From Archaeoglobaceae archaeon (GTDB taxonomy: Archaea; Halobacteriota; Archaeoglobi; Archaeoglobales; Archaeoglobaceae), in contig JAVYOO010000002.1 in assembly GCA_038734275.1 (NCBI GenBank), positions 282,911 through 346,910 on the forward strand: a stretch of DNA of 64,000 bases, written 5' to 3'. Position numbers and translations under genes: made by a program. Shown piece by piece: positions 13,798 to 20,353 of the stretch (position 1 is its first letter; every line of letters begins with the position of its first letter). The notes beneath the pieces were generated by a model. That model was not told the DNA's origin and searched no databases. It worked only from the letters and a program-made list of their open reading frames with translations.

Positions 13798-15993
13798 TCA
13801 AAAAATCCCAGCAGTTAGCTTCCTGTAAAGCTCCCCGTTGTTTTTCCACAGATCGTAGCGGTCTATGTGCATTAGCTTTGTCCAGACTGCAATGAAGTCT
13901 TTCACAAACTTTTCTTTTCCATCCAACGCTGCATAGACTTCGCAAACAGCTCTAAGCTCTTCATGATGTCCGAAGATTAGATCAAACCTTGTTGCTCTCC
14001 ATTTCAGCTCTCCACTTTTTCTGTCATAGCCTTCGTAGAGATAACCGAACTCGTCTGCTGGTTTCCACTCTGTAGCCATGTCAAGCAAATTTGCAATGAC
14101 TTCGTTGCTCAAAACCCCGGGATTTTTTGTAAGCACTCCTAAACCATCTGTATAGACCGCTCCAAGTGCCCTTATACCCCAGAAGAGAACTACAAGCTCT
14201 GGAACTGTGAGCCTTAGAAGCTGTGCCTTATCGACAAGCATTTCTTCAACCCTTTTTATTTTGTTTATCGAAGCTTCGCGGGCGTAATTTCTGAAACCAC
14301 ACGCAATCGGCTCAATCGCTGACCAAAATTCAATGTCGACATGCTCTTGCAAAGCATCAACTCTTCCCGGAGCAAATGGAACTCTAAATTTTAATCCCGC
14401 TCTCTTTACAGCTTCTTCAATCGCAGTATTTCCAGCTATAACTATCAAATCCGCTATAGAAACTTTCTTGTTCTCTCTTTCATGCTCAGCATCGAATTCA
14501 GCCTTGATCTTTTCAAGCTTTGCAATAATCTTTGCAAGCTCCTCTGGTTTGTTAACTTCCCAGTTCTTCTGCGGAAGAAGCCTTATTCTTGCCCCATTGG
14601 TTCCGCCTTTTCTGTCCGAGTCTCTGTAAGTGAGTGCTGAGGACAAAGCGACGTAGATAAGTTGTTGAACGCTAAATCCCAAGCTCAATATTCTGCTCTT
14701 TAGCTCTTCCAAGTCTTTATTGTTGATTAGCTCGTAGTCCCTTGCGGGCAACGGATCCTGCCAGATAAAAACTTCTTTCGGCACATCTTTGCCGAGATAG
14801 CAATCTCTTGGCCCCATGTCTCGATGGATCAGCTTAAACCAGGCTTTTGCGAATGCTTCCTCGAATTCTTTAGGATTTTCAAGGAATCTCTTCGCAATTC
14901 TCGAATACACAGGATCGAATCTTAAAGCCAGATCAGAAGTCAGCATCATTGGCGGGTGCTTCTTGCTCGGATCATGAGCGTCAGGAATTATTGCTGGCGC
15001 ATTTTTCGCAACCCACTGATATTTTCCCGCCGGGCTCTTTGTGAGCCCCCATTCGTGCTTGAACAATAGATGGAGATACTGAATACCGAATTTCGTTGGC
15101 GTAGGGCTCCATGTGAGCTCAAAGCCTGAAGTAAATGTGTCGGGACCTTTTCCAGTTTTGTAGTTGAACTTCCATCCCAAGCCCTGCTGTTCTATGGGTG
15201 AAGAACTTGGATCAGGACCAAGAAAAGTATTTGGAGTGGCTCCATGGCATTTGCCAAATGCATGCCCACCTGCGATCAAGGCTACGGTTTCTTCATCGTT
15301 CATCCCCATTCTCGAAAATGCAACTCTGATCTGCTTTGCAGACTCTACTGGATCAGGATTTCCCTCTGGACCCTCGGGGTTAACGTAGATCAAACCCATT
15401 TCCGTAGCTGCAAATGGCTTTTCGAGCTCCCCTTCCTTAAAACGCTCCTTTCCAGAAAGCATTTCAATTTCTGGCCCCCAATCTGTGCCTTCATCAGGCT
15501 CCCATGCATCTTCTCTACCACCAGCGAAGCCAATGGTCTTAACTCCCATCAACTCCAGAGCAACGTTTCCAGCTAATACAATTAAATCAGCCCAAGAAAG
15601 CTTTCTACCATACTTCTGCTTTATTGGCCAAAGCAAACGGATTGCCTTGTCGAGATTTATGTTGTCGGGCCAGTTGATCCTTGGCGGGAATCTTATTTCT
15701 CCAGTCCTTGCTCCCCCTCTGCCATCGAATATACGATAGCTTCCCGCACTGTGCCAGGCTAAGCGAATGAAAAGTGGCCCATAATTCCCAAAATCTGCAG
15801 GCCACCAGTCTTGCGATTTTGTCATGAGCTCCCTTAGATCCTTCTTCACAGCTTCAAGATCAAGACTTTCGAATTCCCTTGCATAGTCGAAGTTTTCGCC
15901 GTAAGGGTTGCTTCTTGGACAGTTCTGTCTTAAAACTTTCAAGTTAAGCCTTTCCGGCCACCAGTCAGTGATCCATCTTTTTCTTTTTTCCAT
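13798..15993 (-). CDS. katG: Catalase-peroxidase KatG
   Basis: Bifunctional haem catalase/peroxidase of 731 aa that removes hydrogen peroxide. Two homologous peroxidase domains are visible; the N-terminal one has the distal residues in FIRLAWHSAGSYR (Arg77, Trp80, His81), the cross-link tyrosine in MGLIYVNPEGPEG, and the proximal histidine in ALIAGGHAFGKCHG. The C-terminal domain begins near KSRILSLGFSVQQLIYVALSS and lacks the haem ligands, as expected. ATG 15993 follows a GGTGA ribosome site. It is divergent from a Fur-family gene with a PerR-like operator between them, so peroxide- or metal-responsive control is likely. Full length and intact. Confidence 0.97.
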   Translation of the reverse strand: MEKRKRWITDWWPERLNLKVLRQNCPRSNPYGENFDYAREFESLDLEAVKKDLRELMTKSQDWWPADFGNYGPLFIRLAWHSAGSYRIFDGRGGARTGEIRFPPRINWPDNINLDKAIRLLWPIKQKYGRKLSWADLIVLAGNVALELMGVKTIGFAGGREDAWEPDEGTDWGPEIEMLSGKERFKEGELEKPFAATEMGLIYVNPEGPEGNPDPVESAKQIRVAFSRMGMNDEETVALIAGGHAFGKCHGATPNTFLGPDPSSSPIEQQGLGWKFNYKTGKGPDTFTSGFELTWSPTPTKFGIQYLHLLFKHEWGLTKSPAGKYQWVAKNAPAIIPDAHDPSKKHPPMMLTSDLALRFDPVYSRIAKRFLENPKEFEEAFAKAWFKLIHRDMGPRDCYLGKDVPKEVFIWQDPLPARDYELINNKDLEELKSRILSLGFSVQQLIYVALSSALTYRDSDRKGGTNGARIRLLPQKNWEVNKPEELAKIIAKLEKIKAEFDAEHERENKKVSIADLIVIAGNTAIEEAVKRAGLKFRVPFAPGRVDALQEHVDIEFWSAIEPIACGFRNYAREASINKIKRVEEMLVDKAQLLRLTVPELVVLFWGIRALGAVYTDGLGVLTKNPGVLSNEVIANLLDMATEWKPADEFGYLYEGYDRKSGELKWRATRFDLIFGHHEELRAVCEVYAALDGKEKFVKDFIAVWTKLMHIDRYDLWKNNGELYRKLTAGIF

Positions 15994-16042
15994 ACTTTCA
16001 CCTTTAAAATGATGAATTGTTATTGTTTAAAAATATTTTGAC

Positions 16043-16059
16043 TTAGAAATTATTTCTAA
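16043..16059. promoter_or_regulatory. PerR/Fur-box-like operator between katG and the Fur gene
   Basis: A perfect 8-1-8 inverted repeat, TTAGAAAT-T-ATTTCTAA, lies in the 103-bp katG/fur gap. Its 7-1-7 core layout resembles the known PerR box (TTATAATNATTATAA). A TATA-like element for katG is at about 16028-16040 (minus strand) and one for fur at 16067-16076 (plus), so the palindrome sits just upstream of both boxes. The repeat is directly visible; binding by the adjacent regulator is inferred. Confidence 0.75.
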
Positions 16060-16096
16060 TCAGAAAATTATAAAAACAATTGAGCTAAGTGAGTTT

Positions 16097-16498
16097 GTGT
16101 GGAAGCAAAAAGCAATTGAAGCATTAAAGTCTGCAAACCTAAAATTGACTCCTCAAAGGCTGAAGCTAATTGAGATAATTGCAGAGATCGGCAACAGACA
16201 CCCCACGCTTGCGGAGATCCTTGAGAAGGTCAGAGAGGAGTTTCCCACAACAAGCTTTTCCACACTTTACACGAACATCTTAATGCTTAAAGCTCTCGGA
16301 TTACTCGAGATCTTTGCAATTGGCGATGAAACGAGAATAGAGCTGAATTTAAAGCCCCATATCAACGTCTTCGATCGTGAAATCAGGGATTTTTGCGATG
16401 ATGAGCTAATGAGAAAAATTGAAGAAAAAATTGGTATGAAAGTCAAGATCGTGCTCGTTTTTGTAGACAAAGAAACTAAACCCCCAATAAGCTTCTAA
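16097..16498 (+). CDS. Fur/PerR-family transcriptional regulator lacking the CxxC zinc site
   Basis: A 133-aa Fur-superfamily repressor. The winged helix (LTPQRLKLIEIIAE, HPTLAEILEKVREEFPTTSFSTLYTNI) and the dimerisation/metal region are present. By eye against B. subtilis PerR the regulatory metal ligands His37, Asp85, His91, His93 and Asp104 correspond to His35, Glu82, His88, Asn90 and Asp98. The CxxCG zinc motif normally after the HxH is missing (VFDRE instead). GTG 16097 is 25 bp from a TATA-like ATTATAAAAA, so it is leaderless. It is divergent from katG and presumably controls it. Whether it senses peroxide or metal is unclear. Confidence 0.88.
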   Translation: MWKQKAIEALKSANLKLTPQRLKLIEIIAEIGNRHPTLAEILEKVREEFPTTSFSTLYTNILMLKALGLLEIFAIGDETRIELNLKPHINVFDREIRDFCDDELMRKIEEKIGMKVKIVLVFVDKETKPPISF

Positions 16499-18023: not shown

Positions 18024-18108
18024 CTAATCACCCTTCAGTTTTTGAGACCTTCAGTATATATTTTTTTCGTAAATCTGGTTAAAAGTTGAGAAAAAATCAA
18101 TTTTATGG

Positions 18109-18120
18109 TCAAAATTTTGA
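18109..18120. promoter_or_regulatory. Perfect palindrome upstream of glnA
   Basis: TCAAAATTTTGA, a perfect 12-bp palindrome, about 90 bp upstream of the glnA start in an AT-rich 142-bp gap. Its TCAA...TTGA ends match those of the larger palindrome between the RHH gene and amt. A second spaced pair, TTGA-N7-TCAA (18086-18100), is beside it. In such AT-rich DNA this could be chance; I list it because the flanking gene encodes a DNA-binding RHH protein. Confidence 0.3.
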
Positions 18121-18165
18121 AAAATTTTTAAAAAAATTCCTAAGGCTATCATAAACAAACTTTCT

Positions 18166-18702
18166 TTAATCACTGACAGAAAAAGGCTTAATCCTCAGCT
18201 TCATGAACTCTTCCTTAATCTCGACATCGTATCCTATAAATGGCAAGACGATCTCTAAAAAGCTCTTTACAAAATTCTTTAGGAATTCACTGCTAAGCAC
18301 AAGCGTATATTCTCCATCCTTTGCTGTAAATCTGAACAAATTGCAAGCTTCAAGCCTTCTAAGAACGTATTCAAGATCCTTTCCCGCAAATTCGTCGGCA
18401 TGAGCTCTTGCTATGTCTCTGTGAATCTCCCAGAATTGCTCTTTCTCAGGATGAGAACTAAGAAACTTCATTAATGCTATGAAGTGATCTATATCGAGCA
18501 CAACATGCTCTCCATTTCTTAACATCTCAACATATCTCATTATTATTTCCTTTCTGACGTTCTTGAGCTCTCTGAATTCGTAGTAAAACTTCAGAACTTC
18601 CCTTATTAGCTCGCTTTGTGATTCAAATTCCCCTCTTAGCTCGTTCATAATTTTTAGGCTCTTCTCATCCAATGCAACCGTTAATCTTACTGGGTTCTTC
18701 AC
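18166..18702 (-). CDS. Ribbon-helix-helix (CopG-like) regulator, candidate nitrogen regulator
   Basis: A 178-aa protein. Residues 1-45 form a ribbon-helix-helix motif: a strand (PVRLTVALDEK) and two helices (SLKIMNELRGEF and SQSELIREVLKFYYEF). The remaining ~130 residues are a mostly helical domain I do not recognise (LDIDHFIALMKFL, EIHRDIARAHADEF), ending in an alternating hydrophobic stretch EIKEEFMKLRIKPFSV. The open frame extends to 18750, but GTG 18702 is preferred: a TATA-like GATTTTTAAATC is 25 bp upstream, within the longer frame. It sits between glnA and amt-glnK and mirrors amt across a symmetric promoter. Function as a nitrogen or metal regulator is inference. Confidence 0.75.
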   Translation of the reverse strand: MKNPVRLTVALDEKSLKIMNELRGEFESQSELIREVLKFYYEFRELKNVRKEIIMRYVEMLRNGEHVVLDIDHFIALMKFLSSHPEKEQFWEIHRDIARAHADEFAGKDLEYVLRRLEACNLFRFTAKDGEYTLVLSSEFLKNFVKSFLEIVLPFIGYDVEIKEEFMKLRIKPFSVSD

Positions 18703-18721
18703 AAAAATTAAGAAGAGTCCA

Positions 18722-18832
18722 GATTTAAAAATCTTTCGTAAAGCGAGCAATTTCCTAAAAAATACTCAAATTTTTTTAAAAAACTTGAAGGTATGAAAAA
18801 TTAAGAAGACTTATTAAAAAGATTTTTAAATC
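18722..18832. promoter_or_regulatory. Mirror-symmetric divergent promoter of the RHH gene and amt
   Basis: The two start codons (18702 minus, 18852 plus) have their midpoint at base 18777. A near-perfect 11-1-11 palindrome (TCAAATTTTTT / T / AAAAAACTTGA, one mismatch, 18766-18788) is centred on exactly that base. A 12-mer GATTTAAAAATC (18722-18733) and its exact reverse complement GATTTTTAAATC (18821-18832) lie 49.5 bp to each side. The flanking 12-mers are also the likely TATA boxes, each about 25 bp from its start codon. Positions are seen directly; joint regulation by the RHH protein is inferred. Confidence 0.7.
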
Positions 18833-18851
18833 CACCATTTGCTCAGGATTT

Positions 18852-20353
<1,502 letters not shown>

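Follow-up and report, generated by a model that had tools for sequence, protein, structure and literature searches.

What controls the two transcription units that diverge from the short gap between an RHH regulator gene and amt-glnK in this Archaeoglobaceae genome, and what does the mirror symmetry of that gap mean? The original prediction took the symmetry as the sign of one nucleoprotein complex governing both the regulator and ammonium uptake. We analyzed the gap within a 64,000-nucleotide stretch of DNA, referred to here as the window, and compared it with related genomes of the Archaeoglobales.

The rhh-amt intergenic gap is 149 bp long, has a GC content of 24%, and extends from the GTG start of the RHH gene at 18702 to the ATG start of amt at 18852, with its midpoint at 18777. 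Support for the GTG start comes from orthologues, which carry ATG at the same codon; for amt, the proteins of the nearest relatives align from ATG 18852 onward. The amt gene (18852-20021, + strand) encodes an ammonium transporter of 389 amino acids (Pfam Ammonium_transp, PF00909, E = 6e-128; TIGR00836, E = 8.5e-132, above cut-off). It is directly followed on the same strand by glnK (20027-20353), which encodes a P-II protein of 108 amino acids (Pfam P-II, PF00543, E = 1.3e-28), and the pair (18852-20353) has the layout of an amt-glnK operon; in operons of this kind, 2-oxoglutarate and nucleotides govern the blocking of the Amt channel by GlnK. In Archaeoglobus fulgidus, each amt likewise shares an operon with a glnK of its own; in the passages available, the account of that system covers GlnK control of the channel and contains no transcriptional regulator of amt (PMC3198391).

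On the other side of the gap, the RHH gene (18166-18702, - strand) encodes a protein of 178 amino acids. RHH_1, at its N-terminus (residues 6-42), is the only Pfam family to exceed its cut-off in this protein, with a score of 23.1 bits against a curated threshold of 20.5 (E = 7e-5; 1.6e-11 in the best orthologue). All 25 aligned orthologues match the family at E <= 0.1. The remaining C-terminal domain of about 130 amino acids contains residues that are invariant in the orthologue alignment (H66, H73, H94, H101, C120) and matched no family in family-profile searches. By sequence, the relatives of known structure in the PDB are RHH domains only, with weak matches. The predicted structure is poor (pLDDT 63, from an input of three near-identical sequences), and fold matches of this model in the PDB, to designed proteins and H-NOX at low TM-scores, were uninformative. 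Proteins paralogous to it over both domains (about 25-40% identity) occur across the Archaeoglobales, with as many as seven matches per genome.

Core promoters at the outer arms of the gap

The copies of GATTTAAAAATC (18722-18733) and GATTTTTAAATC (18821-18832) reported by the original prediction are indeed exact reverse complements located 49.5 bp on either side of 18777, and the match extends to 15 bp (18722-18736 / 18818-18832). Read outward, both arms give AAAGATTTTTAAATC: on the - strand at 18722-18736 as the putative rhh core promoter, whose TATA box is separated from the GTG by about 22 bp, and on the + strand at 18818-18832 as the putative amt core promoter, whose TATA box at 18821-18832 does not vary among the three genomes of the genus. 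A TTTAAA-like box is found 22-25 bp upstream of the RHH start in 25 of the 26 orthologues scanned. The 1.73-Mb genome contains four copies of GATTTTTAAATC: two in the gap, one intragenic, and one near the start of another gene. This last, promoter-like copy (L094, 1584-1595) is 31 bp upstream of an RtcA-like gene, as judged by eye from the N-terminus, which is the same distance as at amt. AT-rich boxes about 25-30 bp upstream of starts are also common by eye throughout the window.

Because the third copy, the TTTAAA-like boxes, and the AT-rich boxes all stand at like distances from starts, the outer arms are, as judged from sequence, archaeal TATA boxes that serve two nearly leaderless promoters. 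Their distance to the start codons is therefore expected. The 15-bp identity between the two arms is notable; it is kept in the related genome G052 and shows two changes on the RHH side in G051. Just upstream of the rhh TATA box, ACGAAA looks like a BRE. Upstream of the amt TATA box lies an AATTAAG-N6-TATTAAAAA block (18799-18820, + strand) that alignments show to be common to other genera; positions 18801-18820 are 90% conserved within the genus. Most likely, the gap controls both the rhh and the amt sides.

A 14-bp direct repeat, AAAAATTAAGAAGA, has one copy at 18703-18716, downstream of the rhh TATA box but ahead of the start codon, and another at 18796-18809, upstream of the amt promoter. 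Of this repeat, other genera hold only the amt-side AATTAAG.

Linkage to amt and a composite site in relatives

Of the 57 Archaeoglobales genomes, 34 contain an RHH orthologue. Every one of these carries amt, and the 15 genomes lacking amt contain no such orthologue (Fisher 2.2e-8, a figure inflated by kinship among the genomes). Within the window genus, the orthologue is confined to the three amt-bearing genomes. The RHH gene is immediately divergent from amt in about 23 of the 34 and 0.9-2 kb away in about four more; the complete RHH-amt-glnK layout of the window recurs in G001. Genus g7 and part of genus g13 keep the RHH gene without an adjoining amt, and the protein may therefore have other targets. 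G038 and G036 each encode a further RHH orthologue (L082, 4657-5190; L083, 2032-2553) downstream of amt-glnK on the same strand, with one more gene intervening in G038.

A composite site, TTGTGA-N5-TCACAA-N2-TTTGTGA, adjoins the RHH TATA box in the gaps of ten genomes, which represent five genera. When the gaps are aligned from the RHH start, TTTAAAAATTTTGTGA, TCACAA, and TTTTGTGA fall at fixed distances. The pattern TTGTGANNNNNTCACAANNTTTGTGA occurs with 0-2 mismatches in the RHH gaps of G001, G002, G009, G010, G012, G019, G020, G032, G035, and G036 (genera g2, g3, g5, g9, and g12) and with 3-4 mismatches in those of G039, G038, and G017. For each of these 13 gaps, none of 300 shuffles matched as closely. 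Whole-genome scans of 12 genomes (eleven relatives and the window's own) at up to three mismatches returned 0-2-mismatch matches in the RHH-amt gap only, with 3-mismatch matches scattered elsewhere. At one mismatch, counts of TCACAANNNTTGTGA were above those of a reversed control in most genomes (17 against 4 in G009; equal in G036); the sites are scattered, and no regulon is claimed from them.

The co-occurrence, the divergent arrangement, and the restriction of the composite site to the gap in the relatives scanned support a tie between the RHH protein and ammonium uptake. This part of the original prediction is supported, whereas its use of symmetry as the sign of a complex is not.

The composite pattern is poor in the window genus (best seven mismatches), as it is in g8 and g7. 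Genomes with the pattern are found in both branches of the RHH tree at its deepest split (rooted at the midpoint). The pattern is therefore probably an ancestral feature that was lost in the window genus, the RHH stem branch of which is long (0.94 changes per column). The alignment columns of the relatives' operator are filled there by 18734-18764, TTTCGTAAA...TTTCCTAAAAAATA, which is 97% identical in G052 and 81% in G051. This segment is the likeliest candidate for a remodelled operator of the genus, although the ACGAAA that it contains on the - strand is also compatible with a BRE. Some g8 genomes hold TTCTAAAAAATC or CTCTAAAAAATC in the same columns.

On this basis, we consider it probable that the RHH protein is a local, autoregulated one-component regulator of amt-glnK that acts between two back-to-back promoters. 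Its binding site would lie between the promoters but off-centre, next to the TATA/BRE of the RHH gene, and from there the protein would repress its own transcription while simultaneously setting that of amt-glnK. For the latter, repression lifted on nitrogen limitation seems somewhat likelier than activation. The C-terminal domain may read the signal, and in the window genus the remodelled segment 18734-18764 would have taken over the operator role. Self-repression is the firmer part of this proposal, because relatives have the site directly next to the RHH TATA box.

In a variant of opposite sign, the RHH protein would act as an activator of amt, bound upstream of the amt promoter, and repression would be confined to its own gene; this is conceivable but on balance improbable. 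In its favour, the relatives' composite site is off-centre, preceding the amt promoter and adjoining the RHH BRE/TATA, and binding upstream of the BRE is known for some archaeal activators. Against it, no ligand is known for the AATTAAG block that lies closer to the amt TATA box.

The centre of the gap

Local autoregulation from an off-centre site leaves the palindrome at the middle of the gap to be accounted for. This sequence, TCAAATTTTTT-T-AAAAAACTTGA (TCAAATTTTTTTAAAAAACTTGA, 18766-18788), forms an inverted repeat of the 11-1-11 type that has a single mismatch and its centre at 18777, exactly as first described. It could be read as the RHH operator, with a dyad-symmetric nucleoprotein complex over 18722-18832 controlling both genes together. 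The geometry is exact: such a palindrome arises anywhere in the gap in 4.2-4.3% of dinucleotide shuffles, but one of equal strength within 1-2 bp of the midpoint in only 0.1-0.2%. In addition, the only near-perfect copy in the scanned genome is the gap's own. The sequence itself is mostly a T-run followed by an A-run, which counts against this reading, and the outer arms that the complex would incorporate are TATA boxes.

Within the genus, both genes are present in three genomes. Compared among them, the palindrome is 96% identical to G051 and 61% to G052, against which it is the worst-conserved block of the gap (the adjoining 18789-18800 is 67% identical and all other blocks 84-100%). The single change in G051 leaves the palindrome in place but weakens the dyad. 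G052 holds a different dyad at nearly the same place, 10-4-10 with one mismatch; among shuffles, 19% contain a dyad of this strength at any position and 0.6% contain one near the middle.

Beyond the genus, the gap alignment with relatives found the palindrome in no other genus. It falls in a segment present only in the window genus (~18766-18793), which places about 27 bp more between the TATA boxes than in the operator-bearing relatives: the TATA boxes stand 101-102 bp apart in the window genus, but 73-75 bp apart in 12 genomes belonging to five genera. The palindrome and the spacing are missing from relatives, which is much of what the original prediction named as grounds for its refutation, whereas a back-to-back TATA-TATA spacing of 73-75 bp is conserved in other genera, and the conserved site of the operator-bearing relatives is located elsewhere in the gap.

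As the arms are TATA boxes and the palindrome is the fastest-changing block, in a genus-specific insertion with no counterpart elsewhere, the single symmetric complex is not upheld, and we regard an RHH operator at the centre as unlikely. The exact mirror symmetry appears largely to follow from the resemblance of two core promoters that stand at similar distances from their starts. While a function of the central palindrome is doubtful, its exact centring and the other central dyad in G052 leave room for some role of the centre. For example, after loss of the ancestral TTGTGA/TCACAA operator, the fast-evolving RHH protein may have adopted the centred dyad, with one symmetric complex serving both promoters. 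We give this little credence, as for the centred operator in general; if true, regulator and operator would have been rewired jointly.

Relation to known regulators

Still less probable is that the RHH protein represses only itself, with amt-glnK constitutive or under another regulator and GlnK blocking the Amt channel: the relatives' site does abut the RHH TATA box, farther from the amt promoter, and GlnK proteins block Amt channels (PMC3198391), but the limitation of the RHH gene to amt-bearing genomes and the conserved TATA-TATA spacing would go unexplained.

The proposed local regulator resembles members of the CopG/Arc/MetJ family, which control their own and adjacent genes, in its N-terminal RHH_1 domain and its probable autoregulation. 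Such regulators bind short inverted or tandem half-sites close to their own promoters; in five other genera, a conserved composite inverted site next to the RHH promoter is a candidate for such binding, and it is lost in the window genus. Unlike those regulators, the window protein has a His/Cys-containing C-terminal domain of about 130 amino acids, is linked to amt-glnK, and would act at archaeal TATA/BRE promoters. NikR also combines an RHH domain with a larger C-terminal domain bearing conserved His and Cys; however, the PDB match covers residues 5-42 only (E = 0.7), and the C-terminal part lacks a NikR family match. In its proposed role, transcriptional control of euryarchaeal nitrogen genes, the protein is comparable to NrpR, the nitrogen repressor of methanogens, which belongs to an unrelated family (PF01995, NRD1_2). 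NrpR is present in 28 of the 57 Archaeoglobales genomes. No PF01995 match was found in the window's own genome or its two amt-bearing sisters, and this absence rules out NrpR as the regulator at the window locus. The RHH protein is therefore a candidate nitrogen regulator in this organism.

The order-wide pairing of RHH and amt, combined with a near-unique composite site, would point to one protein and one DNA site, including in lineages without NrpR. Likewise, the window genus would provide a natural case of operator loss alongside a long regulator branch. Our literature search, which covered few subscription journals, found no paper describing such an RHH regulator or transcriptional control of ammonium uptake in Archaeoglobales. 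It likewise yielded none on the A. fulgidus gene AF1745, a tentative locus number.

Some further features of the neighbourhood were recorded. The glnA-rhh gap (18024-18165) differs between the window's own genome and G052 at a single position; third codon positions, 85% identical in rhh and 92% in amt between the same genomes, vary more. Two motifs lie in this gap: a perfect palindrome of 12 bp, TCAAAATTTTGA (18109-18120), and TTTACGAAA (18065-18073), the latter also present before rhh. The gap is possibly a glnA control region. We considered TTTACGAAA as an RHH site common to the rhh and glnA upstreams (four in the window against 0.84 expected) and rejected it, reading it as promoter because it is placed where the BRE belongs. 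TTAGGAAA was tested for enrichment and was not enriched. The amt of G051 (L007, 2175-3523) is in two overlapping pieces (residues 1-219; 177 onward), as if by partial tandem duplication or misassembly. Elsewhere in the window, a 731-amino-acid ORF at 13798-16498, catalase-peroxidase-like by eye, has as its neighbour a Fur-family gene in divergent orientation (FUR, E = 9.8e-18).
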